Positions 7,731-63,874 of a stretch of DNA of 64,000 nt are shown one piece after another. Made by a program: the position numbers and the translations under genes. Every line of letters starts with the position of its first letter. Within the stretch, counting starts at the first letter, position 1. The notes under the pieces were generated by a model. It had not been told where the DNA came from. It worked only from the letters and a program-made list of their open reading frames with translations, and did no database searches. The stretch comes from Sipunculus nudus (lineage: Eukaryota > Annelida > Sipuncula > Golfingiida > Sipunculidae), in contig CM049314.1 in assembly GCA_026874595.1 (NCBI GenBank), forward strand, positions 52,437,812-52,501,811, written 5' to 3'.

Positions 7731-9800
7731 CAAGTGGCCCATAGGCCATGATGCTCAGCTGAATTTGACTGGAAGCTCATTTCTTTTATTAATGTTACAT
7801 ATCCTCTGTGAGAATAGCCTATGGTTAATGTGACTATGTTGTAAAATGGAGAGAAAATAAAAATTTCAGGATTCAAAGGAGACTTGTCAAGGACCCCCTT
7901 GAATTTCACAATAGAAAATCAAAAGAAAATGGATACAATTTGTACCCTGTCTGTCTGGGTGCTCAAAATCAAGTTTCTTGTCTATAACTCGCAAAATATA
8001 GGTCACCATGACCTAATTTCAGGTTTTCAAAGAGATTTGGCAAGGACCTACCTGAATTTTATGTTAGAGGAGTCATGGGGTAATGGATACAATCTGTGCA
8101 CTGTCTGACTGCTCAAAATCATGCTTCTTGTCAGTAGTTTGCAGAATATAGGTCTCCATGACCTTATTTTAAAATTCAGAGGAGATTTGCCAAGGACCTA
8201 GGCCTACTGCATACAATTTGTACTAATCTGACATTAATGGTGCTCAAATCATGTTTTTGGCATGTAATGTGCAGGTTTCCAGTGGGAAATTGCCAAGATT
8301 TCCTTGGATGTTGTGTTAGAAGATTTTATGGCTCAAGGATACCATGTGTGCCCTCTCTAACTGTATTTGACATACATGTATTATAAAAATTAAGTTACCA
8401 AATTTCAGGATTCAAAGGAGACTTGCCCACGACCTCCCTGGACTTACAATAGAAGGTTCCAAGGAAAATAGAAATAATTTGTACCTTGTTCATCTTGGTG
8501 CTTCATATTTTTGGCTCATAGCTCACAGAGTCACCATGATCTAATTTCACGTTTCCAAGGAGAATTGCCCAGAACCTCCCTGGATGTTGCATTAGAAGAT
8601 TCTGGGCCTAACAGATACAACTTGTGCCCTATTTGACTATCTGGTTGCTCAAAATCATGTTTTCAGGCCATAGAACACAGAATATAGGCCACCATGACCT
8701 AATTTCAGATTTCAAAAGAGATCTGCCTATAACCTCCCTGGATGCTGCTTCAGAAGATTCTAGGCCTAATGCATACAGTTTATGCCAATCTGACATTCAG
8801 GGTGCTCATATGACATCTTTTTTCCTGTAGGTTGCAGAATATAGGTCACAGTAACCTAATTTCATGTTTCCAAGAACATTTGCCTGGGACCTCCCAGAAT
8901 GTTATGTTAAAAGATTCTTTGCCTAAAGGATACAAATTGTGCCCCTTCTGCCTGGGTGCTCAAAATCATTTTTTTGGCCCATAGCCTAGGTCGTAAAATA
9001 AGGTCACTAAAACCTCATTTCAGATTTCCAAGGAGATTTGCCAAGAACCTCCCAGGATATTGTGTGAGAAGCTTCTTGCATTAACAGATATAATTTGTGC
9101 CCATTTGACAATTATGGTGCTCATGTATCTTTTTCCAATAGGAGGCCGAATATAGGTCACCATGATATAATTTCAGATTTCCAAAGACATTTACCCAGAT
9201 TGTCACTGAATATTATGTTAGAGGATTCTAGGCCTACTGGATACAATTTGTGCCCTGTCTAACTTTCTTTGTGCTCAAAATTATGTTTTTGGCCTGTAGT
9301 TCTCAAAATATAGGTCACCATGACATAATTTCGGTTTTCCATTTAGAATTTTTCAGTTTAGAACCTCCCTAGATGTTGCTTTAGAAGATTCTTGGCCTAA
9401 TGTATACATTTTGTGCCCATCTGACACTCAGGGTGCTCATGTATCTTTTTCTATAGGTCGCAGAATATAGGTCAAGGTGACTTAATTTCATGTTTCCAAG
9501 GACATTTGCCAAGGACGTCCAGAATGTAACATTAGAAGATTCTCAGCCAAATGAAAACAATTTTTGCCCCATATGACTTTCTAGCTCAAAATCATGTTTT
9601 CGGCCGATAGGTTGCAAAATATAGGTCACCATGACATAATTTCAGGTTTGGAAGGAGAATTGCCTCCCTAGATGTCCAGTTAGAAGTTTCTAGGTCTAAC
9701 GGTTACAATTTGTGCCCTGTTAACTTATGTGCGGGCAGTCAACCCGATGGACAAAGGGTGATTGCTATTGTTCAGATGACTTCCAGTCAGCTGAGCTAAA
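7731..9800 (-). mobile_element. hairpin-ended (Helentron/HINE-like) element, 155-bp tandem core
   Basis: On the minus strand the element starts at TTTAGCTCAGCTGACT (right edge, about 9800) and ends with the hairpin TGGCCTATGGGCCA followed by CTTG (left edge, 7731). The core is about 12 diverged tandem units of 150-160 bp. Each contains 'ATAGGTCACCATGACCTAATTTCAG', then 'GAAGATTCTAGGCCTAA', then a CAATTTGTGCCC block; starts are near 7997, 8148, 8683, 8842, 9001, 9150, 9308, 9465 and 9621. It lies in GPALPP1 intron 2. No Rep or helicase coding sequence is present, so it is non-autonomous. Confidence 0.65.
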
Positions 9801-10209
9801 TACTGATCAGAACTAGGTGATTTGTCATCCAAAATTACCAAGGGCAATGTCTGTGTTACAAGACAACATTTATAATCACAAAACCAAAAATACTGAAATG
9901 ATATCTGACAACCAACAAAAGGCAAAACAAAAACAAGGAAACATAACATTAAGAAAATTCTCAACTCTGGACCTCAATTATGACTGCATCACACAGTCAT
10001 CATCAGCAGATTGGTGTGGTTGACATCCACAATGAACAGAAATCCAACTAACATAAATTTACCAAGAAACATTATATTTTGTTTTTGTTCCACTGCCTGA
10101 TTCTGTCTCCTACATGACACCTCTCAGTATCACTAATAATTACAAAGTACATTAATCTGCCCATCTGAATACATGCCATGATCAGGATAAGTCACTTATA
10201 TTACCATAC
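9801..10209. other. intron sequence downstream of GPALPP1 exon 2
   Basis: No gene or repeat recognised; only short open frames without domains. Confidence 0.5.
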
Positions 10210-10371
10210 CTGTTCTTGTTTTTCTCGTTGTGCCGGTGTCTCCGTCCAGCCTGAGCTATCGATCTGGGTTGCACCATGCCCGAGTTTCCTTGCTGTTAAA
10301 CCAAGGTTCATAGTCCTGTTGCTAGGAGCCTCGGTCATCCATGTTTCCCTCTGTGCCGGCCTGTCTTCCTC
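10210..10371 (-). CDS. GPALPP1: GPALPP1 homologue, second coding exon
   Basis: Fifty-four codons, phase 0 at both ends. The acceptor is the AAG at 10374-10372 and the donor GTATGG starts at 10209. The translation contains RETWMTEAP, then LGLTARKL, then SGWTETPAQREK. These match the order of the family's central region: a WMTE motif, an LG(L/P) block and a W-T-(D/E)-TP block followed by a basic stretch. The phase fits the preceding exon exactly, so intron 1 is about 2.0 kb and holds a MITE and a hairpin-ended repeat. Everything up to the stop at 10201 is intron read-through. No internal stop or frameshift is seen. Confidence 0.87.
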
Positions 10372-10445
10372 CTTAAATACAGTCCTCACAAAACATAAAG
10401 AACATCTGACAAGTCTTCCAGGTATACTGCTTTCCGTCTCCTTCC

Positions 10446-10953
10446 TTAAAGGGACATAAACAGGAGCAATAATATGCCTATTCTTTCAAACTATCAGTTC
10501 AGTTTTGCTTTATACAAAAGTTTCCCAGCAAAACCATCCCAGCACAGTCTCAATAAATTACATATGGCTGTTTAACACTTAGTTATGGCTCTGCTTGTAA
10601 GTAAACACAGTCCATGTGTGTCTGTTTACCATAACAAAGCTGTGTGAATGCAGGTCCGATTGTGAGCCACAACACGCAGAGTTTCAGCCAGCAGTAACAT
10701 GTATTACATTTTTGGGGGGGCCAAGTCAGTGAGGGCATCTCCTGATTGACATGTGCTATGCCTCCACAATGCAAATGGCCCAACCAGCTGTGTTTATGTT
10801 GATCACGCCCAGTCCACTGTTTTTAACACTTGTTTACAAGAGTAAGCAAATGGTTTCAAGGCAATGTTTTGGGAGTTACCAATATATTTTAAAGGGAAGA
10901 AGCTATTTTTTGTGTTAATTCAACATGCTTTATAGCTGATTGGGCCCCTTTGA
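10446..10953. mobile_element. MITE-like repeat with TTAAAGGG ends, copy 1
   Basis: The left edge reads TTAAAGGGACATAA and the right edge, read inversely, TTCAAAGGGGCCCAATCA. An inverse, diverged copy of the whole segment lies at about 28010-28533. Both contain CTTTATACAAAAGTTTC near one end and a TGTTAAAACAGTGGACTGG block near the other (one read inversely). TTAA-type ends would fit Kolobok or piggyBac-like elements. It sits in GPALPP1 intron 1, about 75 bp from the exon 2 acceptor. Confidence 0.6.
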
Positions 10954-11353
10954 ATAAGAGGTCATGACCCCTTTTTATAAGGTTAGGGCTCGCATCCATA
11001 TCTTTCCACATTCTAAGTCTAATTGATCAAATATTTTATCTTGCTCACAAGAATTCTCCGTTGAAGTGTCAATGAAAGAAGTGCCATAGTGGGACCCAGG
11101 TAATGGTGCTGAAACCTGCCTAGCCTTACCTCCATGGGGTACAGTATTGGCTTTGTATGTACTTACCACAAACATTCACTAAGGTAATTCAATGAAGCTT
11201 TCATTATGTTTATTATATGCATCTCAAAGGGTTATTCTTTACTTCAGCAAATTCATCCAGTCACTCATATTATTTATAAATTCAAATACAGTTTACTTTG
11301 TCAAAATGCAAAAGTACCTTAGGGTAAGTTTTCAGTTTTAATTAATCTAAATA

Positions 11354-12360
11354 ACAAGTGACCCGTGGGTCGTGACGCTCAGCCGACTGACATGTTAATT
11401 GTTATCAATATGTCCTTTCACAGACAACTAATTAAGATAATGTAGGTGGCATCATTGTTCATGCATATTAGCTTAAGTTCAACAAGACCAATAATTCCCT
11501 GGATTTTAGGTTAGAAGATTCCAGGTCCAATGTTTATGATTTGTGCCCTGTTTTTGTATCAAATTTTTAATTATGATGGGGGGTGTTTATAAGCCCAATA
11601 ACTCAGAGAATATGGGTAACAGAGACCTAATTTCAGGTTTCCATGGAGACTTTTCATGTACCTCTATTGATGTAAAGTGAGAAGATTCTAGGTCTAGTTG
11701 TCACGATTAGAGCCCTGTTAACAGATGACCGCATCTTTTAAGGTCTCAAAAATAGATGAAGAAAGAGTAAAAAATTGAAAAAATAAAGGTGTCACCACCA
11801 GTCTGCAGAAACTGATGAAAAACTTCATGGTGAATATCCATGCAAAGAATCATGGTGATCAATGCATTAGTTGTTCAGATACTTGAGCTTTTGTATCAAA
11901 TTTTTAATTATTCTGGGGGGTACTTCCGAGCCCCATAGCTTGAAGAATATGGGTACCAGAGACCTTATTCCAGGTTTACAAGGAAACTTTTCATGGGCTT
12001 TCCTGCATGTCAAGAAAGAAGATTCTAGGATCAGTCGTTACAGTTTGTGCCCTGTTAACAGATGATTGAATCTTTTAAGGTCTCTATTTTAATAGAGAAA
12101 AAAATCGTAAAAAAAAAAAAAAAAAGGTGGCGCCACTGGTCTGCAAAAACTGATGAAACACTCAATGATCAATATCCATGCAAAGAATCATGGTGATCAA
12201 TGCATAAGTTGTTCAGATACTTGAGCTTTTGTACCAAATTTTTCATTATTCTGGGGGATACTTCGGAGCCCCATAGCTTAAAGAATATGGATAACAGAGA
12301 CCAAATTTTAGGTTTCCGAGGAGACTTTTCATGGACCTCTTACAGTCAGCTAAGCTAAAA
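11354..12360 (-). mobile_element. hairpin-ended element in GPALPP1 intron 1
   Basis: Minus-strand orientation: the 5' end TTTTAGCTTAGCTGACTG is at 12360 and the 3' hairpin (GACCCACGGGTC followed by ACTTGTT) at 11356. The inside is two to three diverged copies of a long unit. Each has 'CCTAATTTCAGGTTTCC', an 'AAGATTCTAGG' block and a poly-A/GGTGGCGCCACTGGTCTGC block, then CATGCAAAGAATCATGGTGATC. These blocks link it to both the 7731-9800 core and the 5340-7080 array. Confidence 0.65.
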
Positions 12361-12396
12361 ATAGTAACAGTGCAAGAACTGAAGTTTCAGAAATAC

Positions 12397-12801: not shown

Positions 12802-12819
12802 CTTGATGGCTTGTGTTTC

Positions 12820-13386
12820 TGTAATTAATGCATGAAGTTAACACTGCTTAACATAATGTAGAACTAGTACTATAGTCAGTTTAACCACGTCCACTTTTTT
12901 TTGTGAGAATATTTTGATACGTCAAAGAACACCAGTTGTTTTACCACCAAGACCAGAAAGAGGAAGACATTTGGAAAAAATAATCTACCTCATGTGATTT
13001 TCCTGTAAACAATTGAAACTATATTATGAGAAACTAGTATATTCTGTAGCAACATCTTACCACCCACTTATGAAAGAGACATGGCAGAGAACAGTGATGA
13101 CATCATAATAGACATTACCTACCAAAGAGGCACCCATATTCAAGGGACCAAGGATCATTAGCTGTTGACCCCTGTTTACAGTGAGGCATGTATTGTTCTT
13201 GTGCAGGTATTTAATTGTTACATTGTACACATTACATCAAAACCATATCCCTGAAGGACAATCAAAGGTCACTTGTTAGGGACACAATGAATTAAAGATA
13301 TTTTTAACAGACATGACAACCAGGAAAAATTGCAATTTATGCTAGTTTTGTTTGGTGAGTTTGTCTTACATGGAAATAATAAAGAC
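12820..13386. other. 5' flank of GPALPP1
   Basis: This region should hold the GPALPP1 promoter or a 5'UTR exon. I see no TATA box or initiator I would defend, and no CpG-rich stretch. Confidence 0.4.
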
Positions 13387-13539
13387 ACAAGTGACCTATG
13401 GGTCACGACGCTCAGCTGAACTTGATAATGATTGTGTATCATTATTTAAGAAAAGTACACAGTACACATATTTGGAGTTTTATGGGCTATATGAAAGATG
13501 CAGGAGCCTCTAATGATTACATATTTGAAGAATACAGTA
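13387..13539 (-). mobile_element. 3' end of a hairpin-ended element, interrupted
   Basis: Hairpin TGACC-TATG-GGTCA at 13392, followed by the subterminal GCTCAGCTGA. After about 150 bp it is broken by the DNA element at 13540. No matching 5' end was found before 14746. Confidence 0.55.
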
Positions 13540-14694: not shown

Positions 14695-14745
14695 TATTGG
14701 TATCTCAACTAAGTGACTGACTGTAATATGCATGTAATTCATAAA

Positions 14746-16349
14746 ACAAGTGATCCATAGATCATGAAGCTCAGCTGACTAGGAGGTCATTCACAAAAGG
14801 TATTTTATCATCTGAATGCCAAATTTTGTAGTTGATATCCCCATTCAACTGTAGCAACAAGGGCCCAGAGGCACAAATAGTCCCCCACCCCATGCATAAC
14901 TCAAATGTTGGTATTTTCTGTGACATGCTTTAATTGGGATTGGCTGAAATAGGATAATTCAGGATCTAAAGGTATCTTATGTGATGGATGCATCAATGCA
15001 TTTAACATTAAAGTTTAAAACATTAATGATATGCAGAATAACCCCTGACATTTATATTTGCCAAAAAAATTAAAGACCTATAGATTTATATTTTTCTGCA
15101 GTGCCAAATAAATTTTCTTGGTCTAGTAAAGGTTTCATTATCTTGTAATTTTATATGTGGATCATGAGAATTAACTTAAAGTGGCACATGAAGGGTGAGG
15201 AAGATTTTGACATTATTTATTAACATTCTGAAAGTCATTATCTGTAGACTGTTGGCACCTCATTAGTGAGCTCTGGTTTTGTGTCCATATGCTCATAATG
15301 GAGCTATCAGCTCTTGGCTCAGAATACCAGGTAAAGCCCAGATAGCTAGTTAAACTGGACTGGCACCTGTACACTGGTAGACTGTTTCAGTATTTTACCA
15401 TACCACTGATTTCATCTTGAGCATTTTCAATGATGTTACTGTGTGCGAAAATTACTACAACTTTGATTAAAAGAAAAATGAAAACTGCAAATATAAGAAA
15501 GGATGCTTTAGGGCCACTGTCACTATACTTATTAGAAAGATATGCATCTCAAAGGTAAGCCCAATAACATTCATTTTCTATTTCATATATACATTCATCA
15601 ATGCTATCCTTTAGAGTAGTCCGACACGTACGGACTCCATTTATCTGTGATATGGAGTCCGACCGTCTGGTGGTGAGAGTTCACCCTGTGGTACATGGAG
15701 GGACCTGTAACATGAAATACCACTGCTTGTGCGATAGAGAAGCAATCTCATATTCATATATAAAAATAAACTAAATATGTATCAAATTATATCGATATAT
15801 CACCTTTATGTGCACCTGTAGATGTTTTTGATCCTTTGAACTCCTGGGGTTCAGTTGTTGCCAGCGCAACAGGAAACCGCCGGAAAAGGAATCCCATGTA
15901 AACTAGGTGGGCAATCTATGCAAAAGAGGAACTCAGGGGGGCTTTTCCTAGGGATGCCAGTGCTGTGCACTAGGATATACCCTTATTTCATAAAATTCCT
16001 TCCCATCATACACCGCAGTATTGTCTATGATGCTACATTCCTATTGGCTGTTCCAACCTGGCTGTTCTAATACTGACATGTAGTTGAGCTTGAACTAATT
16101 AAAGTTACAATTATCTATAAGCAAAAGAACACCTATATGTGACACTAAGTGCAAAACATATGTAAACAAAGCGGAAACTACATGCAACACTATCTTAAAG
16201 TAAGCTTCTGTAATCTACACAAGCAGCTATACGTAACATCATGAGCAAAATAACATCTGTAAACAACTGTATGTAATATTAAATATGTGCATAAAAATGA
16301 TGTAGACAACATAAACAGCTATATATGTAACACTATGTGCAAAAATAAA
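14746..16349. mobile_element. 3' end of a hairpin-ended element plus unassigned sequence
   Basis: Hairpin TGATC-CATA-GATCA at 14751-14764 with GAAGCTCAGCTGACT beside it. The first about 90 bp resemble the element at 36819 (CGCAAAAGG...TTTTATCATCTGAATG). A stem-loop with arms GGACTCCAT and ATGGAGTCC lies near 15635-15660. A degenerate roughly 45-bp repeat (variants of TGTAACACTATGTGCAAAA) runs from 16085 to 16345. No 5' end or gene found. Confidence 0.5.
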
Positions 16350-17057
16350 CATGGGACCCATGGGTCACATCGCTCAGCTGAATATTGGAAAATATTAGTA
16401 ACTGCAAAATATTTTTATTTCTTTTGGTTTTTCATGTATATTATCATTAGAAAAGCTATGGCCCTGCTAAAATGAAACTCTGTATATTATAGAATAATGG
16501 ACATGAGCTAAACCATTTAGTGATGCACCAAGGGAAAAAATAGGCCTACGGTAAGTGTAATATAAAAGTAACATTTCATAAACAAATAATGTGTGAAGGT
16601 AATTAAGTTTTCAAAAGTTAAATATATGGCCATATGAGTTAAAAATTAATCCCACAAAGTTTGACCAATATTCCTAATTTAATACTAAATTAACAGTGTT
16701 ATTCACACCTAGGCCCTGCCAACTTTAAGAGATATGAATGAAATGCTACAAAGTATTTATATCCTCTTAAATCTTGTCAGTTAGCACTTACATTAGATCC
16801 TAATATTTTATCACATTTAAATATATTAGGATTAAATTCCTAAAATTTTTTTCTTAAAAAAAAATCAAAATTGTCAAGTCTCATCGAAAAGAATTTATTT
16901 AACATTAAAATTTTAAGATTCATCTTGTTTATTAATCCTGTGTATTGAAGGGGTGGGCTGGGGAAGGGGTCTCCGTTGTTACCGCTCGTTGCTGAAAAAA
17001 ATGTTAATTTTAAGATTAATCTGGTTTAAAGTACAGGTCTGTCAACAGAATAGGGTC

Positions 17058-17079
17058 GGGGGGGGGGGGGGGGGGGGGG
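17058..17079. repeat. poly-G tract, 22 G
   Basis: Uninterrupted run of 22 G on the plus strand inside the 16350-21312 element; length is prone to sequencing error. Confidence 0.9.
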
Positions 17080-17234
17080 CAGAGAAAAAGGCTCCCTGTA
17101 GTATGGTATTAACTGCAGACAGCCTGATCAAGCTCAACTTGGTGGAGAGAGGGCTTGCCCTAGTGATGGGATTGCATAACATTATGCCAACAGCAAATTT
17201 CAGATTTCAACAGATTAAATCCTTATGTGCACAT

Positions 17235-18792
17235 TAGGGCCCTGCGCGGGCCGAAAAATTGAACCCACACCCACCCCTGTAAGCCCGCAGCCCGCCCCGT
17301 AATCAAAGAAAAAAATTTAGCCCGCCCCGCCCGGCAGTTACTTTGATTCTTTCAGCCCGCACCCGCCCCGCAAAATTTTCTTTCAGCCCGCACCCGCCCC
17401 GCCCCGCATTTTTCAAGTGTCCGGCCCACAGTCCAGCCCGCAAAATAATTTTTTAAAAAGCTTTCGGATCCAAAGGTTTACATAGAATATTTTACAGCAC
17501 ATATATAAGCCACGGTTATCATTAATATATTTGAAATGTTTGATGATTGGAATGAAAAATTAATTTTAATACGTTTTTGCAATCATTCAAACCATAACTC
17601 ATGAAATATTTTAAAAGACATGTTTGATTGGTAAAATGGATTTAATATATACATAATAATTTAACAAACTTTAAATATGTTCTAATATTTTTCAGGGGAA
17701 ATAAATAAACCATTGATTTATTGTGTCTGTTTCTACTTCAATTTATAAAAAAAAAGTAAAGAAAAAAAATAAATTTCCTAAAAGTATGTGTACCCAAAGT
17801 TACCCTTTGGAATGGTATGGGCTAATCACAAGCCACCAAACTACTGAGGTGTGTTGCATGGTTAAAATCTTTTCAGTCATAATCTGCTAATTAGCTGAAA
17901 TTGAGACTAATCAGATGGTCAAGGGAGTAGGGGGGTAGTCTGACCTATGTGGCTTTAGGGTCAGTATGTTCATTGAAATAGACATAACCAGAGCGGTGTT
18001 TCTTATAGTAGTTATCACCACCTTATGGAGTGCCCAAACAGGGATTTGACCAGCCAGTGGTCAATGTCAGTTACAAATAGACAGCACATGGAGTTACAAT
18101 TAGATAAGGAGTCAACCTTAGGCTTTGTGAAGTTCTTTGTCAATTGAGTCGCCTAGAGAGCCAGCTGTAGCCACACACTGTCTATAACAAGATCAGAGGT
18201 AATCAAGCCCTTGCTTCTCTCCCAGTCATATTATGTAATATGTGAGACCTGACACAAATACCGGCTTACAGTCCATATACAACATCGATCAAGGTAACTT
18301 TATACAAAGTTATGACTAGCTTCCACTGCAAGGAAAATTGTTTAAAATCTAAATTTCAAATTAATGATGGATCATCTATTTTGATAACAAATTGAAGTTA
18401 TACCTAGAAAAGACACATATGCATAGTGTTGTTACAACTGTCAGTCAGTGTAAGGGGTTAACAGGAATAAATTAAAATTTATAAACATTTGTCTTTTCAT
18501 ATTACTATTTTTACAGCATGCACCTGAAAACATTTTATACAAAATTATCAATGTCTGAGAATGAAAGTTTTCTTATGAATAATTATATATTCAAGTTCTA
18601 CTGAACTGCCAGATCATCAACCCGCAGCCTGCCCCGCCCCGCACAGGCTTTACTTTGGCCCGCCCCGCCCCGCACTTCCATAGATGTAACCCGCCCCGCC
18701 CCGCAAAGAATCCTTTGCGGGGACCCGCGGGGGCCCAAGGGTTGCGGGCCCCCGCCGGCTGCGGGTCAAAACCTGCCCCACGCAGGGCCCTA
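17235..18792. mobile_element. non-autonomous hAT-type element with 8-bp target duplication
   Basis: Both ends read TAGGGCCCTGCG (C/T)GGG inwards, and the element is flanked on each side by GTGCACAT (17227-17234 and 18793-18800). Eight-base duplications are the hAT hallmark. The terminal 200 bp on each side are strings of CCCGCCCCGC, very GC-rich, around an AT-rich body of about 1.1 kb. No transposase frame. The host sequence is the hairpin-ended family; uninterrupted paralogues of the same site occur at about 58550 and 61080. Confidence 0.85.
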
Positions 18793-18800
18793 GTGCACAT

Positions 18801-20640
18801 GCTGTGAAAATTAAATCCACAGTACTTACTGGAAACTAGATGTGTCGGAACGACACGAATGCCCCCGCCTGGGGCAAATAAGAAACATTTGTAAAATTTT
18901 GAAAAATTTTTTAAGTTCAGGAGGTGTTGTATGGTCAAAAGTAGGTCAACAAGGGCAAAATGCAAACTCGATCTGTAACGGGTCATTATCAAGCAACACA
19001 CCAAAAATCATGCCAGTATATGCAGGCATTGTGAAGAAAAGTCCATACATGTGCGTTTTCCATAAAAATTTCTGTCTTTCATGAAATTTTCTATGTTTAG
19101 GAGCCGTTAAACAATGAAAAGTAGGTCAACCAGGACGAAACGCGAACTCGATCTGTAACTGTCATTATCTGCCCACACATAAAAAAATCAGGGTGGTATC
19201 TGCAGGCATTGAGGAAAAAAAGTCAGTACATATGCATTTGTTATGAAAATTTCTATTTTTCATGAAACTTTCTATGTTCAGGAGCAGTCAAATGGTCAAA
19301 AGTAGGTCAACTGGGACAAAACAAGAACTCGATCTGTAACTGGTCATTATCTGCCTACACACTAAAAATCAGGCCCGTATCTGCAAGGCACTGTGAAAAA
19401 AAGTCCATACATGTGCACTTTTTTATGAAATTTTCTATGTTAGAGCACCGTCAAATGGTCAAAAGTAGGTCAACTGGGACAAAACGCGAACTCGATCTGT
19501 AACTGGTCAATATCTGCCAACACACCAAAAATCAGCCAATATCTGCAGGCACTGCGAAAAAAAGTCTGTACATGTGTATTTGTCATGAAATTTCATATTT
19601 TTCATGAAATTTTCTATGTTCAGGAGCCCTAAAATGGTCAAAAGTAGGTCAACTGGGACGAAACGCGAACTCGATCTGTAACTGGTCTATATCTGCCCAC
19701 ACACCAAAAATCAGGCCAATATCTGCAGGCATTGCGAAAAAAAGTCCGTACATGTGTATCTGTCATGAATATTTCTATTTTTCATGAAATTTTCTAAATT
19801 AAGGAGGTGTAAAACGTTCAAAAGTAGGTCATCCGGGACGAACACGAACTCGATCTGTAACTGGTCATTATCTGCCTACACACTAAAAATCAGGCCCGTA
19901 TCTGCAGGCACTGTGAAAAAAAGTCCATACATGTGCACTTTTTTATGAAATTTTCTATGTTAGAGCACCGTCAAATGGTCAAAAGTAGGTTAACTGGGAC
20001 AAAACGCGAACTCGATCTTTAACTGGTCAATATCTGCCAACACACCAAAAATCAGGCCAATATCTGCAGGCACTGCGAAAAAAAAGTCTGTACATGTGTA
20101 TTTGTCATGAAATTTCATATTTTTCATGAAATTTTCTATGTTCAGGAGCTGTAAAATGGTCAAAAGTAGGTCAACTGGGACGAAACGTGAACTCGATCTG
20201 TAACTGGTCTATATCTGCCCACACACCAAAAATCAGGCCAATATCTGCAGGCATTGCGAAAAAAAGTCCGTACATGTGTATCTGTCATGAATATTTCTAT
20301 TTTTCATGAAATTTTCTAAATTAAGGAGGCGTAAAATGTTCAAAAGTAGGTCATCTGGGACGAAACGCGAACTCGATCTGTAACTGGTCATTATCTGCCT
20401 ACACACCAAAAATCAGGCCAATATCTGCAGGCATTGCGAAAAAAAGTCCGTACATGTGTATTTGTCATGAAATTTCTATTTTTCATGAAATTTTCTAAGT
20501 TTAGGAGCCGTAAAACAGTCAAAAGTAGGTCAACTGGGACAAAACGCGAACTCAATCTGTAACTGGTCATTATCTGCCCACACACCAAAAATCAGGCCAA
20601 TATCTGCAGGCATTGCGAAAAAAAGTCAGTACAACTGTTT
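18801..20640. repeat. about 178-bp tandem array with a three-unit higher-order repeat
   Basis: CTCGATCTGTAAC recurs at about 18968, 19147, 19328, 19491, 19672, 19850, 20012, 20192, 20368 and 20553, at spacings of 162-185 bp. Other blocks are TGAAATTTTCTATGTT, AAAAGTAGGTCAACTGGGAC and AAATCAGGCCAATATCTGC. Three successive units (19328-19849) recur almost unchanged as 19850-20367. Confidence 0.9.
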
Positions 20641-21467
20641 GATTTCGGAATGACGGAAGGACAGACATGGGTAAAACTGCTGAAATGGACTGTTAAATTT
20701 CGGACTTCCACAAATTTAATTTTTTTTCTGTACGAAATTTCACAGATTTTACGGTACCAATTTTATATTTTTGCCAATATTTAAACAAATTTAACAGATT
20801 TTGATCTAATTTTTGGTATATAATTAAATTTTGTTTAATTAAAGTTGTATTACTGAAAAAAAGTCCCTACCTTTAACACTCTTGGTCTTAAGTGACCAAA
20901 TATCTTCCTGATTTTTTTACAAAGTCCATTATGTTTGGGCCCATAACTTTTTTAAATTAAATAATACTGATTTAATTTCTGGCATGTACATAGGAATTAT
21001 ATAGAGGAATATTTATGGTAAATATGAAGAAAACCAGATGAGTGGTTTTGATATTAGGCAGTCCTGAAGTGTGAAAATAGATTTCTAATAAAACATTGAG
21101 GTTTTTCCTTAATATCTCAAAGGAATAAAGTCCTATTGACCCAATTTTCGGTATGGTAGGAGATTTTGGGGACATCTAAATGTATACTGAATTTCATATT
21201 GGTAGGTCCAATGGTGTCGAAACGTGCCAGTCTTACAGACGGACATCGGGACAGACGACAGGCAATGGACCACAACTATAGCTTAGATGACTTATAGTCA
21301 GCTGAGCTAAAAACTAGGCACTAAAATAGATGTAAATGTAATCCTATATAATATAAATTGATGAAAATAAGGTTTGCCCCACTACTTAAATCTAGACATA
21401 ACCATTTTTACAAACTTGGCCAACTTTGATAGTTGAAATGGGTCTGTAATATCAAACAATGCATTTT

Positions 21468-36703: not shown

Positions 36704-36818
36704 AAGAAAGTTCGGTACTTGGTAAAACCTGGATTTGACTCAGGACTGGGACTCCACAGTTATAATCTCCGGACCCGGAAACAAAAGCTTATATATATTG
36801 TATAGATTGTTTCATAAA

Positions 36819-44740: not shown

Positions 44741-45620
44741 ATGGCTACATACCAGATCCCCACGCCCAACAACGTCATTAAAGGGCGACTTTGTGGAGAA
44801 CTGGCGTGAATTTGAGAGTGCCTGGGAGAACTATTTAGTTGCTACTGAACTTAAACTTAAGCTCAAAAATGAAGATGGGACTGACAATCCTGCTGGGATG
44901 GCTATTGTTGCAGCCGCCCTATGCTTTGTAATGGGGGCAGAGTGCAAGAGAGTACAAAAAAAACCGGGACCTCCAGACAGAGGACAGAAAAAAATCCCAT
45001 CAGAATAATAGTGGTACTGAGAACATATTTCATACCACAACGGAACGTGCTATATGAAAGGTTTCTCTTCAACACCGCTTTGCAGAAAACTGGAGAGACA
45101 GTTGATGAATATGTTTTTAGATTGAGGCAACTTGCAGACTCGTGTATATTTGGTGACCTAAAGGACTCTCACATCCGAGACAGGATAGTAACAGGCACAA
45201 CTGATGATGGAGGGAGAGAGCGAATCCTTAGGTAGACACCAGTACCTAGTCTTGAAAAAGTTGTTGAAAACTTGCGGCAGCAGAGGTCTCACACACCCAC
45301 AAACAGGTTATTTCTGGACTCTCACATCCGAGACAGGATAGTAACAGGCACAACTGATGATGGAGGGAGAGAGCGAATCCTTAGGTAGACACCAGTACCT
45401 AGTCTTGAAAAAGTTGTTGAAAACTTGCGGCAGCAGAGGTCTCACACACCCACAAACAGGTTATTTCTGGCACAGGTGAGACTGCAGTAAACTATATGGG
45501 ACGACATAAGCGGTATAAAGACAGGAAATATCAAGCAGAGGTCTTGAAAGATGAAAAGTGCTCGTCAGAGGTCCAGGAGGAGTGTCCTTGTCATATCTGG
45601 TAACAGGTGAAATAAAGGAA
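44741..45620 (+). pseudogene. Gypsy gag, broken
   Basis: ATG at 44741 is followed by a stop after about 20 codons. The frame resumes with ENWREFESAWENYLVATEL and continues after another shift with QKTGETVDEYVFRLRQLADSC, a standard Gypsy capsid pattern. A 153-bp segment is duplicated in tandem at 45163-45468. No zinc knuckle array or Asp-(S/T)-Gly protease motif could be found between 45500 and 45950, so the protease region seems lost. Confidence 0.7.
45163..45468 (+). repeat. 153-bp perfect tandem duplication in gag
   Basis: 45163-45315 and 45316-45468 read the same as far as I can check, starting GGACTCTCACATCCGAG and ending GGTTATTTCT. The length is 51 codons, so the frame would be kept, but each copy holds an in-frame TAG near its middle. 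Confidence 0.85.
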
Positions 45621-53403: not shown

Positions 53404-53515
53404 TTTTTAGCTCAGCTGGCTGTAAGTCATGGAAAGACCTATAAACTGCAAGCTAAGGTCAAATAACATGATTTGAGCATGTTGAACATCACATTTTTTG
53501 CTCAGTTGACCATAA
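53404..53515 (+). mobile_element. 5'-end fragment of the hairpin-ended family
   Basis: TTTTTAGCTCAGCTGGCTGT AAGTCAT matches the family's 5' end; the match is lost after about 50 bp. A second TTTTTTGCTCAGTTGACC lies at 53496. It sits in the intron just before the ABCC4-like exon. Confidence 0.45.
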
Positions 53516-53646: not shown

Positions 53647-53649
53647 GTA

Positions 53650-54692
53650 AGCCCTCTCTCTCTGTTCTTTGTGCATACATTAACAAAACAAAACAAGGGT
53701 AACTGTCAGTTTCTCTCTCTGCTCTTTGTGCATACATTAACACAACAAAATAAGGGTTATTGTCAGTTTCTCTCTCTGCTCTTTGTGCATACATTGACAC
53801 AACAAAATAAGGGTAACTGTCAGTTTCTCTCTCTGCTCTTTGTGCTTACATTAACACAACAAAGCAAGGGTTACTGTCAGTTTCTCTCTCCGTTTTTTGT
53901 GCATACATTAACACAACAAAACAAGGGTTACTGTCAGTTTTTCTCTCTGCTCTCTGTGCTTACATTAACACAACAAAACAAGGGTTACTGTCAGTTTTTC
54001 TCTCTGCTCTCTGTGCTTACATTAACACAACAAAACAAAACAAGGGTAACTGTCAGTTTCTCTCTGCTCTTTGTGCATACATTAACGCAACAAAATAAGG
54101 GTTATTGTCAGTTTCTCTCTCTGCTCTTTGTGCATACATTAACACAACAAAATAAGGGTTACTGTCAGTTTCTCTCTCTGCTCTTTGTGCATACATTAAC
54201 ACAACAAAGCAAGGGTTACTGTCAGTTTCTCTCTCCATTTTTTGTGCATACATTAACACAACAAAACAAGGGTTACTGTCAGTTTCTCTCTCCGTTTTTT
54301 GTGCATACATTAACACAACAAAGCAAGGGTTACTGTCAGTTTCTCTCTCTGCTCTTTGTGCATACATTAACACAACAAAGCAAGGGTTACTGTCAGTTTC
54401 TCTCTCTGCTCTGTGTGCTTACATTAACACAACAAAACAAAGGTTATTATTAGTTTCTCTCTCTGCTCTGTGTGCATACATTAACAAAACAAAACAAGGG
54501 TTACTGTCAGTTTCTCTCTCTGCTCTGTGTGCATACATTAACACAACAAAACAAGGGTTACTGTCAGTTTCTCTCTCTGCTCTTTGTGCATACATTAACA
54601 CAACAAAACAAGGGTTACTGTCAGTTTCTCTCTCCGTTCTTTGTGCATACATTAACACAACAAAACAAGGGTTACTGTCAGTTTTGCTCTGG
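53650..54692. repeat. 57-bp minisatellite, about 18 copies
   Basis: Unit: GGGTTACTGTCAGTTTCTCT, then CTCTGCTCTTTGTGCATACA, then TTAACACAACAAAACAA. Because 57 is a multiple of three, long frames stay open on both strands (274 codons on plus). One unit has a 5-bp insertion near 54020. The array starts within about 10 bp of the ABCC4-like splice donor. Confidence 0.95.
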
Positions 54693-54973
54693 GATCTGTT
54701 GATGTTTGATGTGCAGTGGGTCAAAGTGATGTGCAGTGATACTAAATATATCTGAAAAGTGATATGATTATGACAGACACATAGTTGTGTATAAGTCAAT
54801 TTTAAACTGCTATGATCGGTTGCTTGTTTTCTTGATATGTACAAAATTTATATGAATCATATAAGTTCATACTGGTATTCAGAGTCATTTTCATGACACT
54901 CATTGATCATTTTTTCGCAGTTATGTTGTAATTTAATTAAGTGTAGCTTAAAGCTATTGGACTGATTTCTCCT
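54693..54973. other. unassigned intron sequence
   Basis: Nothing recognised; no next transporter exon. Confidence 0.4.
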
Positions 54974-56784
54974 TTTTAGCTCAGCTGACTATAAGTCATC
55001 TGAGCTATAGTCATGGTCCATTGTCCGTCGTCCGTCCGTCTGTCCGTCCGTCCGTCTGGATGTCCGTCCGTAAGACTGGCACGTTTCGACACCGTTGGAC
55101 CTACGAATCTGAATTTCGGCATACAGTTAGATGTCCCCATAATCTCCTACCATGTCAAAAATTGGGTCAATAGGACTTCGTTCCTTTGAGATATTAAGGA
55201 AAAACCTCAATTTTTTATTAGAAATCTATTTTCACACTTCAGGACTGCCTAATATCAAAACCACTCATCTGGTTTTCTTCATATTTACCATAAATATTCC
55301 TCTATATAGTTCCTATGTACATGCCAGATATTAAGTCAGTATTATATTATTTAAAAAAGTTATGGGCCCAAACATAATGGACTTTTTAAAAAAATCAGGA
55401 AGATATTTGGTCACTTAAGACCAAAAGTGTTAAAGGTAGGGACTTTTTTCCAGTAATACAACTTTAATTAATCAAAATTTAATTGTATACCAAAAATTAG
55501 ATCAAAATCTGTTAAATTTTTTTAAATATTGGCAAAAATATAAAATTTGTACCTTAAATTTTGCCCAACTTTGGCCATGGCACGTTTTTTTCCTGTAAGT
55601 ACTGTGGATTTAATTTTCACACCATGTATACATAAGGATTTATTCTGTTAATATCTTAAATTTGAAATTAAAAGCTGCAAAATTAGGCTAGTTATTGAAT
55701 TTTTTATGGAGGCTCTTGTTGTATTCCCTTACATTGTCAAGCAGTCCACTTTGATGACTGTAGGTCATTCAGTGCACATCTCTATGCTCCCCAGGCTGTT
55801 GACATAATTTTAGATGTCCCCAAAATCTCCTACCTTACCGAAAATTGGGTCATTAGGACTTTGTTCCTTCGAGATATTAAGGAAAAAAAACTCCGTTTTC
55901 CATAAAAAAAGCCATTGTTACACTTCAAGGCTGCCTAATATCAAAACCACTGATCTGTTTTTGATCGTATTTAGTATTCACATTCTTTTATACATTTTCT
56001 GTGAACATACCAAAAATTAGGTCAGTATTGGGTATTATTTTGAAGTTATGGGCCAAAACATAATGCAATTTTTTAAAAAATCAGGAAATATATAGCTTGG
56101 CCACTACTAGCAGGCTTCCCCTCTGCACTGCACTCATCCCCCCGGCTGGTGCATAAACTAGATGAATGTTATAATTTTTCTGTATTTTATTTTATTCTTG
56201 GACATGCTACATTTTAGATTTTGTATTGAACCACCAGGGTTACAATGATTAAAGTGTGCATTTAATTGTGTCCACAAAGTGGTGTATTGCTGTGAAAGTG
56301 TGGATGTTCATGAGATAAGTAATTCCTTACTTCAGAAGAGTAAAAACTTCACCAGGTGTGAAATTGACTATTAATTCCAGTAATTAATTAAAACTGGGAT
56401 AGTAATTAGCACAATGATATTGTTTGTCCCTCATTCAACCAACAGTGTGTATACTTTATTTGAAAAGATGTTTTATTTTATCAAATTTACTTTTATTTTA
56501 TTTTGGTGAATAAAATTAAGCATGTCCTGAAAACTCCAATGTGCAAAACTTTTTAATAGTGATTCAAGGAATATTCTTGTAGATGCCATGTTGTGGCATT
56601 ATTTTCTTTTAAAATCAGTTTAAACATTTATGATTTAAAAATAATAAAATATATGTGTATGCATAATATGACCCAATGTTTTTTACTCTGTATATATAAT
56701 GATTGCAACTTTTGCAACAATTCTAATATTTTAACTTATATTTTCAGGTTTTTTAATTAAAAATTTATAAACCTGTAAATAAAA
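54974..56784 (+). mobile_element. 5' part of a hairpin-ended element
   Basis: Starts TTTAGCTCAGCTGACTATAA, followed by GTCCGTCCGTC simple sequence to 55075. An internal segment is repeated with divergence at about 55105-55560 and 55800-56090 (AAAATTGGGTCA(A/T)TAGGAC; CTGCCTAATATCAAAACCAC). The 3' part matches 62216-62900. It is cut at 56785 by another copy in inverse orientation. Confidence 0.65.
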
Positions 56785-58600
56785 CAAGGGACCCATGGGT
56801 CACTGTGCTCAGCTGAAGTTGACCTTAAAGGTAAAAATCTAAAATAATATCAAATGGAGATAAAGTCTATGAGGAAGAGGTAATATGGGCCATGGTTGGT
56901 TTATATGATTTGTTTGGACTGATAAGCAAGAAATTGTTGCAAATAAAATTTTTTGATCTGACCATGGGTTTTCTAATGTTGAAACTGAAGCATGGGAGCA
57001 GTTTGTGAACAAATGATGTGTACTATTACCATGACCATTAGTTGGCTTTTTGATTAACTGTTGACATTTCAGTAGTTTACACATTTGTTCAACTGAATAT
57101 ATTTTTTTATAATATGTATTATTAAATATATGTTTTTTTTTTATTTTATGAAATGTATACAGTTGAAATATAACTAATATCCCCAGTCCACAGATGAAAG
57201 GACTTGGTGGTGGTGGGGGGGGGGGGGTTGGAATGGTTGGAGTTACAACATATCTGTATTATTATAGTGTATATACATAGGATTTTCACTTAATTCAACA
57301 ATGCTTACAGGATAAAAAAGTTCATTCATTATTACTTAATATTTAAAAAAAGACAGACAGACTGGTAGACAAACAAAGCTGATAATTTAAGTTTCAATTA
57401 TTTCATAATTTATTTATTATATCAAATTTGTTTAAAGTTTAACATCTGCAATAATACACAACTGAATATATAATTTGCTATCAAATATCAGACTTAAATA
57501 GCTTAATTCCCAACACATACAGCATATGAAAGTTTTTTCATCAGTGCTGATAGGAAAAATTTCATAATTAATATATATTTAATGATAATGGAGAGATGAT
57601 GGACAGAGCTGATCACTTTATGTTCCATTCTCCTAAGGCAAGAATATGTTTCAATAAGGTCTTAATTTTTCTAATCCTATTATTATTTTAATATAAATAA
57701 ATTTTACACATTTGCAATAAAAACTAATGTCCCAGTGCACAGGAATCAGTGGCAGCTGGGGGGGAGGATGTTGGGATTAAAAACAAAGCCTTACCTCCAA
57801 TTCTGCTGAGGCAGAAAAATAATGAACAAATGATTGTATTAGATCCTCCTTTTTTTATCACATCAGTTTTTTTTTATTACAAGTTTATAATGCTATACAT
57901 TTCCAATATTACATATATATCTGAATATAAAAGTTGATTCATAATTCTAAATTGCATCATCATTAATCTCAATCCTGTCAGATAACAGCACATCATGCAT
58001 ACAAATGTTTATTTTTTACCACAAAAATATATATCTTTTAAATTTGCAAAACAATAAATATTTAAAAATAATACTTGATTCAGATTTCACAATTGTAATT
58101 TGTGCCTTTATTTATCCATAATTTGCTTCATTTTAGCATACTGATTGGTTTAATTATATTTGTTAAAATCATTTAAGAGAAAACAGATTTCTTTAAAAAT
58201 GCTACATAAACACAACATAGCATCTTCTGGATTACACCATGAATGACTTTTTCAAGGAAAGTTTTTGTATATTGGAGTGGAAATAGCATTACAATTAAAG
58301 AGATACAGTGAAAACAATAACAATTACTGCATAACACTTGGTGGGTTGGGTTTCTGGGGGATGGGGGTGGTGATATGAGAATAACTGTAACAAATCAGAA
58401 ACCCTGGCATAGCTGACTTCCAGTGACCTGGAGTTGGACCTTGCATCTGGAAAAAGGAAATGACTACAAAACAGCCTCAAGAAAAAAATCAATAACTAGC
58501 CTAATTTTCAAGCTTTCATTTTCAAATTTCAGATTTTAACATATTAAATACTTATGTTTACATGCTGTGAAAATTAAATCAATTGTACTTACAGGAAAAA
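56785..58600 (-). mobile_element. 3' part of a hairpin-ended element, inverse orientation
   Basis: Hairpin GACCCATGGGTC at 56790-56801 with TGTGCTCAGCTGA beside it. It runs to about 58600, where a further copy is inserted. Includes a poly-G tract near 57216 and AT-rich sequence. The last 100 bp (CAGATTTTAACATATTAAAT onward) match the family's middle region. No gene. Confidence 0.55.
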
Positions 58601-61600
58601 CAAGGGACCCATGGGTCACGGCGCTCAGCTGATCGTGATTGGACTATAAATGTTTCTCCACTGTGATACTATATCGAGTCAATAAAGCTTATGAATATCA
58701 TGTACATGTTGGGCTATTATAAAGGAATGTAATGTAATATGTGAGTAAATGATAAATGAAATTACCTGACTGATGGATTAATAGAGTCAAATAAAGTGGT
58801 TTATTTTTTATTTATTTAGGAGGGGTTGAAAATTGTGATATATTTGAGCAAATATGAATGCAATGACAGCAGTAATAAGCAGTAGTAGATGATAAGGCTA
58901 TTTGTTAAAGGATCTAAAGTGTATGGTAGTCTGCAAGTGTTCAATTTGACAGATATGATGTTATGATTAACTATGCTGATGAAGTGATTTATGAATATGT
59001 GACTGTATGACACAATATCTCTTTAGTCTTGACAAGGTACATTATTGTGATGCCCACTATGTCTACATATTACACAATATTGACATAATTTCTGGCATGT
59101 ACATAGGTACCTATGGACGAATAGTTATACAAAATATTAAAGTATGAATATATCTGATTCATCTTGTTCTTGCTTACTGAGGCTGACTTTGGGATGGGGT
59201 TCGGAGAAGGGAAAAGTGAGGGCAGCACGAAGGTGGATGTAGAAATATTCTATTGTAATGTTTTTCATTTATATAAGAATATGAAAAGCTAAGAGGAAAG
59301 GGGCCCTCCTACTTGGTTATAGTAAAGTTCTAAATATATGATTGCAAACTAATACTCTGACAAGACTGTCATGAAGAAAAACAGTAAAAGTTTTGAGATA
59401 CTGTGTTGCATACGAAAATTTACAGATTGACAGGCAAGTGGACAGAATGGACTAATACCTTTATTTCACTTTCAAGAGAATAATGCATTTAAGTTTATAT
59501 ATAATCCTATTTTTTTAAGCAGATCCACTTTTTCCATTAAGAAGTTTTTATCTGTATCATTTTTTTATTTACTGGTTTATAAATTTTTAATTAAAAAACC
59601 TGAAAATATAAGTTAAAATATTAGAATTGTTGCAAAAGTTGCAATCATTATATATACAGAGTAAAAAACATTGGGTCATATTATGCATACACATATATTT
59701 TATTATTTTTAAATCATAAATGTTTTAACTGATTTTAAAAGAAAATAATGCCACAACATGGCATCTACAAGAATATTCCTTGAATCACTATTAAAAAGTT
59801 TTGCATATTGGAGTTTTCAGGACATGCTTAATTTTATTCACCAAAATAAAATAAAAGTAAATTTGACAAAATAAAACATCTTTTCAAATAAAGTATACAC
59901 ACTGTTGGTTGAATGAGGGACAAACAATATCATTGTGCTAATTACTATCCCAGTTTTAATTTATTACTGGAATTAATAGTCAATTTCACACCTGGTGAAG
60001 TTTTTACTCTTCTGAAGTAAGGAATTACTTATCTCATGAACATCCAGACTTTCACAGCAATACACCACTTTGTGGACACAATTAAATGTACACTTTAATC
60101 ATTGTAACCCTGGTGGTTCAATACAAAATCTAAAATGTAGCATGTCCAAGAATAAAATAAAATACAGAAAAATTATAACATTCATCTAGTTTATGCACCA
60201 GCTGGGGGGGGGGGATGAGTGCAGGGCGAGGGGAAGCCTGCTAGTAGTGGCCAAGCTGGGCCAAGGTAAGCTGCCTGGGGTGGGTTACATAATGCAAGTG
60301 AAGGCTGTACTACTAGGTGGGCTAGATGTAAACAACACCTGACATGGTGTGTGAAAACATGAATAAAAGCTATTCATTCCAATCAATTTCTTTTGAAAGT
60401 TCAGATTTTAAAAGATTAAATCCTTATGCATATATGCTGGGAAAATTAAATCAACAGTGCCAAAGTTGGACAAAATTTAAGGTATTGTTTTTTATTTATG
60501 CTAATAACTTGAAAAATTTGCAAAATTCAGATCTAATTTTGGGTGAACAATTGAATCTTGATTAAATAAAGTTATATTCCTGAAAAAAGGTCTCTAGGTT
60601 CAGCAATTCTCATGTGAGTAAATATATTTCCTGACTTTTTTAAAAATTGCATTATGTTTTGGCCCATAACTTCAAAATAATACTCAATACAGACCTAATT
60701 TTTGGTATGTTCATAGAAAATGTATAAAAGAATGTGAATACTAAATACGATCAAAAACAGATCAGTGGTTTTGATATTAGGCAGCCTTGAAGTGTAACAA
60801 TGGCTTTTTTTATGGAAAACGGAGTTTTTTTCCTAAATATCTCGAAGGAACAAAGTCCTAATGACCCAATTTTTGGTATGGTAGGAGATTTTGGGCACAT
60901 CTAAAATTATGTCAACAGCCTGGGGAGCATAGAGATGTGCACTGAATGACCTACAGTCATCAAAGTGGACTTCTTGACAATGTAAGGGAATACAAGAGCC
61001 TCCAAAAAAATTCAATAACTAGCCTAATTTTGCAGCTTTTATTTTCAAATTTCAGATTTGAACAGATTAAATCCTTATGTATACATGGTGTGAAAATTAA
61101 ATCCACAGTACTTACAGGAAAAAAACGTGCCATGGCCAAAGTTGGGCAAAATTTAAGGTACCAATTTTATATTTTTGCCAATATTTAAAAAAATTTAACA
61201 GATTTTGATCTAATTTTTGGTATACAATTAAATTTTGATTAATTAAAGTTGTATTACTGGAAAAAAGTCCCTACCTTTAACACTTTGGGTCTTAAGTGAC
61301 AAAATATCTTCCTGATTTTTTTACAAAGTGCATTATGTTTGGGCCAATAACTTTTTTCAATTATATAATACTGACTTAATATCTGGCATGTACATAGGAA
61401 CTATATATAGAGGAATATTTATGGTAAATATGAAGAAAACCAGATGAGTGGTTTTGATATTAGGCAGTCCTGAAGTGTGAAAATAGATTTCTAATAAAAA
61501 ATTGAGGTTTTTCCTTAATATCTCAGAGGAACAAAGTCCTATTGACCCAATTTTTGGCATGGTAGGAGATTATGGGGACATCTAACTGTATGCCGAAATT

Positions 61601-61736
61601 CAGATTCGTAGGTCCAACGGTGTCGAAACGTGCCAGTCTTACGGACGGACATCCAGACGGACGGACAGACAGACGGACGGACGACGGACAATGGACCATG
61701 ACTATAGCTCAGATGACTTATAGTCAGCTGAGCTAA
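58601..61736 (-). mobile_element. complete hairpin-ended element, 3.1 kb
   Basis: Minus orientation: 5' end TTTTAGCTCAGCTGACTATAA at 61736, GTCCGTCCGTC-type simple sequence, two diverged copies of an internal segment, then the 3' hairpin GACCCATGGGTC at 58606-58617 followed by CCTTGTTTTT. Its 3' 2 kb are nearly identical, in inverse orientation, to 61861-63870. It is the best reference copy in the window. Confidence 0.75.
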
Positions 61737-61860
61737 AAATGATTCAAATAAATACTTCTTAATGGAAGAAGTGGATCTAATTAAAAAAATAGGATTATAT
61801 ATAAACTTAAATGCATTATTCTTTTGAAAGTGAAATAAAGGTATTAGTCCATTCTGTCCA
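61737..61860 (+). mobile_element. fragment of a hairpin-ended element's 3' region
   Basis: ACTTCTTAATGGA(A)GAAGTGG to CCATTCTGTCCA matches 62915-63031 in the same orientation, and 63911-64000 again. It joins the next copy abruptly at 61860. Confidence 0.55.
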
Positions 61861-63874
61861 AGAATTGCTGAACCTAGAGACCTTTTTTCAGGAATATAAC
61901 TTTATTTAATCAAGATTCAATTGTTTACCCAAAATTAGATCTGAATTTTGCAAATTTTTCAAGTTATTAGCATAAATAAAAAACAATACCTTAAATTTTG
62001 TCCAACTTTGGCACTGTTGATTTAATTTTCCCAGCATATATGCATAAGGATTTAATCTTTTAAAATCTGAACTTTCAAAAGAAATTGATTGGAATGAATA
62101 GCTTTTATTCATGTTTTCACACACCATGTCAGGTGTTGTTTACATCTAGCCCACCTAGTAGTACAGCCTTCACTTGCATTATGTAACCCACCCCAGGCAG
62201 CTTACCTTGGCCCAGCTTGGCCACTACTAGCAGGCTTCCCCTCGCCCTGCACTCATCCCCCCCCCCCCAGCTGGTGCATAAACTAGATGAATGTTATAAT
62301 TTTTCTGTATTTTATTTTATTCTTGGACATGCTACATTTTAGATTTTGTATTGAACCACCAGGGTTACAATGATTAAAGTGTACATTTAATTGTGTCCAC
62401 AAAGTGGTGTATTGCTGTGAAAGTCTGGATGTTCATGAGATAAGTAATTCCTTACTTCAGAAGAGTAAAAACTTCACCAGGTGTGAAATTGACTATTAAT
62501 TCCAGTAATAAATTAAAACTGGGATAGTAATTAGCACAATGATATTGTTTGTCCCTCATTCAACCAACAGTGTGTATACTTTATTTGAAAAGATGTTTTA
62601 TTTTGTCAAATTTACTTTTATTTTATTTTGGTGAATAAAATTAAGCATGTCCTGAAAACTCCAATATGCAAAACTTTTTAATAGTGATTCAAGGAATATT
62701 CTTGTAGATACCATGTTGTGGCATTATTTTCTTTTAAAATCAGTTAAAACATTTATGATTTAAAAATAATAAAATATATGTGTATGCATAATATGACCCA
62801 ATGTTTTTTACTCTGTATATATAATGATTGCAACTTTTGCAACAATTCTAATATTTTAACTTATATTTTCAGGTTTTTTAATTAAAAATTTATAAACCTG
62901 TAAATAAAAAAATGATACAGATAAAAACTTCTTAATGGAAAAAGTGGATCTGCTTAAAAAAATAGGATTATATATAAACTTAAATGCATTATTCTCTTGA
63001 AAGTGAAATAAAGGTATTAGTCCATTCTGTCCACTTGCCTGTCCATCTGTAAATTTTCGTATGCAACACAGTATCTCAAAACTTTTACTGTTTTTCTTCA
63101 TGACAGTCTTGTCAGAGTATTAGTTTGCAATCATATATTTAGAACTTTACTATAACCAAGTAGGAGGGCCCCTTTCCTCTTAGCTTTTCATATTCTTATA
63201 TAAATGAAAAACATTACAATAGAATATTTCTACATCCACCTTCGTGCTGCCCTCACTTTTCCCTTCTCCGAACCCCATCCCAAAGTCAGCCTCAGTAAGC
63301 AAGAACAAGATGAATCAGATATATTCATACTTTAATATTTTGTATAACTATTCGTCCATAGGTACCTATGTACATGCCAGAAATTATGTCAATATTGTGT
63401 AATATGTAGACAGTGGGCATCACAATAATGTACCTTGTCAAGACTAAAGAGATATTGTGTCATACAGTCAGATATTCATAAATCACTTCATCAGCATAGT
63501 TAATCATAACATCATATCTGTCAAATTAAACACTTGCAGACTACCATACACTTTAGATTTTTCAACAAATAGCCTTATCATCATTCTACTACTGCTTATT
63601 ACTGCTATCATTGCATTCATATTTGCTCAAATATATCACAATTTTCAACCCCTCCTAAATAAATAAAAAATAAACCACTTTATTTGACTCTATTAATCCA
63701 TCAGTCAGGTAATTTCATTTATCATTTACTCACATATTACATTACATTCCTTTATAATAGCCCAACATGTACATGATATTCATAAGCTTTATCGACTTGA
63801 TATAGTATCACAGTGGAGAAACATTTATAGTCCAATCACGATCAGCTGAGCGCCATGACCCATGGGTCCTTTGT
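61861..63874 (+). mobile_element. 5'-truncated hairpin-ended element
   Basis: Begins inside the family's middle (AGAATTGCTGAACCTAGAGA) and runs to the hairpin GACCCATGGGTC at 63857-63868 and CTTTGTTTTATT. Mirror image of 58601-60612. Confidence 0.7.

Follow-up and report, generated by a model that had tools for sequence, protein, structure and literature searches.

The 64-kb stretch of the Sipunculus nudus genome analyzed here (the window; C9:52437812–52501811 of the 1.43-Gb assembly) contains nine copies of a hairpin-type 3' end, together with 5' ends and repeat-bearing bodies of the elements to which these ends belong. These loci are very probably copies of HINE elements—the non-autonomous partners of Helentron rolling-circle transposons—with a Helentron carrying the same 3' end present in the same genome. 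A first-pass annotation of the window had described the nine loci (7731, 11354, 13387, 14746, 16350, 36819, 56785, 58601 and 63857, which serve here as names) as ending in a subterminal sequence, a hairpin and CTTGTT, and every one of them was located where that annotation had placed it, eight on the minus strand and the 63857 copy on the plus strand.

Element ends, bodies and insertion sites

Read in the sense of the element, the 3' end opens with a subterminal inverted repeat (subTIR), TCAGCTGAGC, starting 34 bp from the element end. Four bases of linker separate it from a palindrome built around GACC-CATG-GGTC, and the element closes with CTTGTT or a close variant of it. All nine window ends follow this plan, as had been proposed, with the exact form TCAGCTGAGC...TTGTT restricted to six of them. 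The deviating ends are 11354 (11353–11386), which carries TCGGCTGAGC, 13387 (13386–13419), with the tail CTTGTG, and 16350 (16348–16381), with the tail CCATGTT; the other minus-strand ends lie at 7729–7762 (where the palindrome is followed by CTTGTT), 14745–14778, 36818–36851, 56783–56816 and 58599–58632, and the plus-strand end at 63842–63875. The nine are not independent of one another: the copies holding 58601 and 63857 are 99% alike, and the 14746 and 36819 ends have the bases before the 3' subTIR in common. To gauge the size of the family, we searched the whole assembly with the pattern TCAGCTGAGC-N14-30-TTGTT, which places no constraint on the stem. This search returned 23,251 matches (11,234 + 12,017 on the two strands), against three (1 + 2) for the reversed pattern used as a control. 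Upon reading 100 of the matches, we classed 89 as true 3' ends and 11 as 5' ends or double counts, and an estimate of roughly 20,000 ends genome-wide was derived from the pattern count, with a density of about one end per 61 kb on either strand. The window is rich in such ends, since it holds six exact 3' ends where the genome count predicts about one per 64 kb. The 40 bases preceding the 3' subTIR vary between subfamilies, and the ends themselves are common to all.

At the opposite end of the elements, the 5' subTIR GCTCAGCTGA was found at 54976 (plus strand), 61736 and 21310 (both minus strand), and in worn form at 9799 and 12358; it is the inverted copy of the 3' subTIR TCAGCTGAGC. In its intact state (54976, 61736 and 21310), the 5' end carries AGCTCAGCTGACT with an inverted copy behind it and, after that, a GTCC-type microsatellite. 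The inverted copy is worn at 9799 and absent at 12358. In the 54976 element, the 5' subTIR and its inverted copy fold at −10.6 kcal/mol (z −5.8). Three minus-strand copies could be delimited from these landmarks: one at 7729–9801, with tandem repeats of ~157 bp, a worn GTCC-type microsatellite and its 5' end at 9799; one at 11353–12360, with ~338-bp repeats and the 5' subTIR at 12358; and one at 16348–21312, with ~180-bp repeats and the 5' end at 21310. No 5' end was recognized for the 13387, 14746 and 36819 copies, the last of which is accompanied by repeats spaced at 344 bp (37109–37795), and a lone plus-strand 5' end (TTTTTAGCTCAGCTGGCT, 53405–53440) has no recognized matching 3' end. Matches in the window to proteins of the Helentrons described below reached E 0.35 at best, which indicates that the HINE copies have no coding capacity of their own.

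The insertion site could be read most directly at a plus-strand copy whose 5' end (subTIR, inverted copy and GTCC microsatellite) spans 54973–55071. A minus-strand composite insert (56783–61738, with its 5' end at 61736) splits this copy within a T tract, written as A on the plus strand, and insert-free paralogues of the site occur at ~62908 (empty site 62880–62935, plus strand), at 59564 (inverted) and at 63906. Two of these empty sites, printed in full, read GTAAAT-A7-TGAT, and the filled site reads GTAAAT-A4, the insert, then A5-TGAT; seven A residues when empty versus four plus five when filled mean that any target duplication at this site amounts to at most two A/T residues. Two half-sites point in the same direction, the 3' ends at 58599 and in another genomic sequence (L028) occupying two distinct positions within one T7 tract of a shared repeat. 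Among 36 ends, 72% have T as the first flanking base directly after the 3' end. For the three delimited copies, the joined flanks had no empty paralogue in the sequence collected. The insertion into T-rich sites without target duplication that the first-pass annotation had proposed is therefore upheld by one filled site with its empty paralogues and two half-sites. Canonical Helitrons, according to the accessible text of PMC4067079, start with 5' TC, end with 3' CTRR and insert between A and T; the elements here differ, the 3' ends running to CTTGTT and the insertion falling within a T tract.

The composite insert itself contains two 3' ends, the first internal (58599, with a GCCG linker) and the second 1.8 kb further on (56783, with an ACAG linker), and the sequence past the first resembles element body. 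This arrangement could be the product of copying past the first terminator, or of a deletion between two nested copies. Moreover, 58597–60610 and 61861–63877 are in opposite orientation and 99% alike across 2 kb, forming a large inverted repeat, and this degree of identity suggests recent activity.

Pairing in the 3' palindrome

The first-pass annotation gave the usual stem as TGACC/GGTCA and pointed to two copies in which both arms had changed together, TGGCC/GGCCA at 7731 and TGATC/GATCA at 14746, taking this to suggest that the fold and not the sequence is retained. We examined this proposition in the nine window ends and in an unselected sample of 88 ends taken entirely from the initial 3 Mb of C1, with stem positions numbered from 0 within the 34-nt end. 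A stem of at least four pairs is present in all nine window ends. Pair 14:27, the outermost one, reads T-A in four of them (7731, 13387, 14746 and 36819), T.C in four (16350, 56785, 58601 and 63857) and C.A in one (11354), and among the 88 ends it is T-A in 25, G-C in one, T.C in 57 and otherwise unpaired in five. A five-pair TGACC/GGTCA stem, as seen at 36819, can accordingly not be called usual, its outer T-A pair being missing in five of the nine window copies and present in 25 of the 88 genomic ends. At pair 16:25, the sample has A-T in 82 ends, G-C in three and a one-sided or broken state in three, and no double change was found at pairs 15:26, 17:24 or 18:23.

When the 44 distinct ends were compared with 500 shuffles, three shuffles reached the observed covariation score, and three likewise reached the observed count of doubly changed cells. 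For the percentage of paired positions there were 22 such shuffles, for the count of doubly changed pairs 111, and for the count of pair types 120. Two of five measures thus stand above the shuffles—in a setting in which related sequences may beat shuffles without any structure—and the signal comes essentially from one pair. Fisher tests on pair 16:25 were left unused, because the copies are related and hence not independent.

The two proposed examples of paired change fared differently. A direct search of the genome found G at position 16 in 1,228 copies; of 100 listed copies of this kind, 85 have C at the partner position 25, 12 have T and three have another base, and the right arm GCC occurs without the left-arm change in 133 copies. 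The same TGGCC/GGCCA stem is found on two ends linked to Helentrons (L075 and L076, discussed in the next section), and a GGCC-type left arm on an end 721 bp downstream of an endonuclease match at C1:63.91 Mb. The change seen at 7731 is a genuine coupled form, carried by a large lineage with coding elements among its members, and it may go back to a single event. As for the TGATC/GATCA form, T at position 17 occurs in 254 copies (16 of the 17 readable ones retain G at 24) and A at position 24 with C at 17 in 274, and both changes are combined in two copies, one of which is 14746. With two observed against three to four predicted by independence for ~20,000 ends, there is no excess, and we rejected this form as a second compensated lineage. 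The proposal that the fold rather than the sequence is retained keeps one coupled pair in its favor and has lost its second example, and the letters of stem and loop are conserved along with the pairing.

These observations bear on what the palindrome does. In the accessible text of their study of fly DINE-1 elements, Yang and Barbash (2008; PMC2374699) proposed that compensatory mutations keep the stem and that the stem may end rolling-circle copying, and reported that DINE-1 stems vary between species yet remain self-complementary. The stem data from S. nudus agree with such a terminator role without proving it. An alternative with a considerable claim to attention, which we consider possible though not the likelier account, accepts the HINE family and holds that the paired change is no evidence of selection on the fold: the palindrome could be a double-stranded dyad site for a dimeric protein, or template switching at the palindrome could have produced a change that one lineage then inherited, and either process could yield the same stem pattern. 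The conservation of stem and loop letters besides the pairing, the restriction of the lineage-level double change to a single pair and a weak single-strand fold all fit this account; against it, stems that have the outer pair, stems that lack it and stems with GGCC arms are each common, and self-complementarity is kept in the species-specific stems of fly DINE-1.

Helentrons with the same 3' end

To identify a potential source of the transposition enzymes, the genome was searched for Helitron_like_N domains, yielding at least 143 matches (best 150 of 195 candidates scored). One weak match led to an element on C1 that comprises a tegument-like protease, pieces of Rep, a PIF1 helicase and an endonuclease, in a broken reading frame, with a HINE-family 3' end downstream in the sense orientation (L074:4963). 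The helicase–endonuclease end of this Helentron matched at least 151 places in the genome (best 150 of 813 candidates). A search with the 26 bases ending in its 3' subTIR, allowing up to three mismatches, returned 21 places versus none for the controls. Seven of these 21 ends sit in sense downstream of a listed endonuclease match, at distances of 1,150–1,281 bp; two of the seven are on C17 and one each on C1, C5, C8, C9 and C10. The C9 copy lies ~90 kb away from the window, and the copy at C17:35.6 Mb (Rep match at 35630192–35630653, minus strand) has a stop-free frame of 2,342 amino acids at both the Rep and the endonuclease match. In seven further Helentron-type ends that were retrieved, six of them from endonuclease-linked Helentrons, the upstream bases are alike through the palindrome and the sequences then diverge, with the exact CTTGTT continuing after the palindrome in four of the seven. 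Downstream of other weak Rep matches, three of six stretches (L075, L076 and L079) carry the 3' end in sense. A sister element on C13 encodes the tegument-like protease, Rep (with a PHIH motif), helicase and AP-type endonuclease in one open frame of 2,420 amino acids.

The end anatomy, the insertion into T tracts and the Rep–helicase–endonuclease elements with the same 3' end together support the Helentron/HINE affinity that the first-pass annotation had suggested; the search it had proposed, for a Rep–helicase element with the same ends, led to elements that share the 3' end. We infer from this arrangement that the Helentron protein—comprising the Rep HUH nuclease, the helicase and the endonuclease—would nick the element and peel one strand off starting at the 5' subTIR, that peeling would halt at the 3' subTIR and the palindrome, and that the peeled product would enter between T residues, with HINE copies being mobilized in trans by the same protein.

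Several findings weigh against this interpretation. The sharing of ends is established for the 3' side only, and for 14 of the 21 Helentron-type ends the matches listed include no adjoining endonuclease match. No HINE 3' end was found in three of the six stretches that follow weak Rep matches, and none in the 6 kb examined beyond the 2,420-amino-acid frame of the C13 element. In addition, most of the 88 sampled ends do not form the outer stem pair, and the 3' hairpins of six ends tested fold weakly, no better than shuffles.

Other candidates for the Helentron and its limits were discarded. Two high-scoring Rep elements examined first (L069/L070 and L071/L072) were rejected as the partner since no such 3' end was found on them; the former is a sister of the partner, with an endonuclease region 89% identical. 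A Helentron 5' end at ~L073:1370 was likewise rejected, as one copy is homologous straight across this point and another extends the homology further upstream.

Could HINE 3' ends simply be nested beside Helentrons that are not their partner? Their frequency in the genome gives this idea some footing, as does one HINE end lying within ~10 nt of a Helentron end, and we nevertheless hold it to be highly improbable, given seven same-strand coincidences within a 131-bp distance band among 21 ends and retrieved ends that are alike in the upstream bases and the palindrome before they diverge. The latter juxtaposition was noted in L083, where a second HINE 3' end lies ~10 nt past a Helentron 3' end. 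Just as improbable is that the loci are cut-and-paste miniature inverted-repeat transposable elements mobilized by a DDE transposase, an idea suited to subTIRs that are inverted copies of each other at both ends and at odds with the asymmetry of those ends, with a duplication of at most two ambiguous A/T residues at the sole site with empty paralogues and with the occurrence of the same 3' end on Rep–helicase–endonuclease elements; no DDE partner was met, though no search aimed at DDE elements was made.

In further support of the Helentron link, the C1 Helentron resembles the window repeats at 5767–6471 and 8545–9059 over short stretches (76–84% alike). The remaining features of the window include traces of other mobile elements. 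Beyond the 7731 end, diverged tandem repeats occupy 5350–7244; some stretches of them are 76–84% similar to the C1 Helentron in its 5' part, and there may be another worn element there. Retrotransposon remains are represented by an RVT_1 reverse transcriptase frame (32555–33223, minus strand, 71 bits) and an rve integrase-like frame (47968–48471, plus strand; 28 bits, under the cut-off). An endonuclease-like frame of the Exo_endo_phos_2 type (40509–41081, plus strand; 21 bits, under the cut-off) was rejected as a remnant of the Helentron described above (E 6.2). Finally, the window holds a 27-bp tandem array of 48.7 copies (751–2053), a 57-bp tandem array of 18 copies (53655–54684) and a perfect 153-bp duplication (45163–45470).

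Relation to known elements and implications

Elements of this kind have been published before, as has the idea that the stem acts as a terminator. As described in the accessible text of PMC7492417, Cg_HINE of Crassostrea gigas shares with the S. nudus family a 5' subTIR with an inverted copy, a GTCY-type microsatellite, a 3' subTIR and a 3' palindrome, as well as T-rich insertion without duplication, tandem repeats of 140–180 bp and, in some groups, unrelated bodies bearing similar ends. In this comparison, made by description and not by sequence, the S. nudus elements differ in that some of their repeats are ~340 bp long (the bodies in the window contain units of ~157, 180, 338 and 344 bp) and in that their genome also yielded Helentrons sharing the 3' end. 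The same source places bivalve Pearl elements, with central repeats of ~160 bp, in a non-autonomous Helentron class, and we liken them to the present family by anatomy alone. SubTIRs, a 3' palindrome, TT insertion and a Rep–helicase–endonuclease partner are also described, in the portions available, for the HINEs and Helentrons of mites and mosquitoes (PMC4067079) and for fly DINE-1 (PMC2374699); the 3' subTIR lies 38–60 bp from the end in mites and starts at 34 bp in S. nudus, and, unlike in fly DINE-1, the paired change was observed here inside one genome. The C13 element resembles Helentrons in which a herpesvirus-tegument-like protease is in frame with Rep, helicase and AP-type endonuclease (PMC9741609), a study devoted to the protease and, so far as its available text goes, giving no element ends, from which a tegument-like protease in Helentrons was already known. 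In the accessible parts of the open-access Helentron, HINE, Helitron and pearl literature we met no account of this family, which says little about print at large. The letters of GCTCAGCTGA occur in the available text of a paper on a razor-clam gene family.

Within S. nudus, the switch from GACC/GGTC to GGCC/GGCC might represent a compensated change of terminator in one Helentron lineage that carried about a thousand matching HINEs with it, in which case lineage-specific Reps may read lineage-specific terminators—a scenario that we advance tentatively and consider rather doubtful at present. Two broader implications follow from our analysis. A very abundant non-coding repeat is linked to the elements of its own genome that probably supply its enzymes, among them a Helentron copy with an open frame of 2,342 amino acids, and stem variants that occur naturally and whose copy numbers are known—GACC, GGCC, and forms with or without the outer pair—make the role of the hairpin directly testable.

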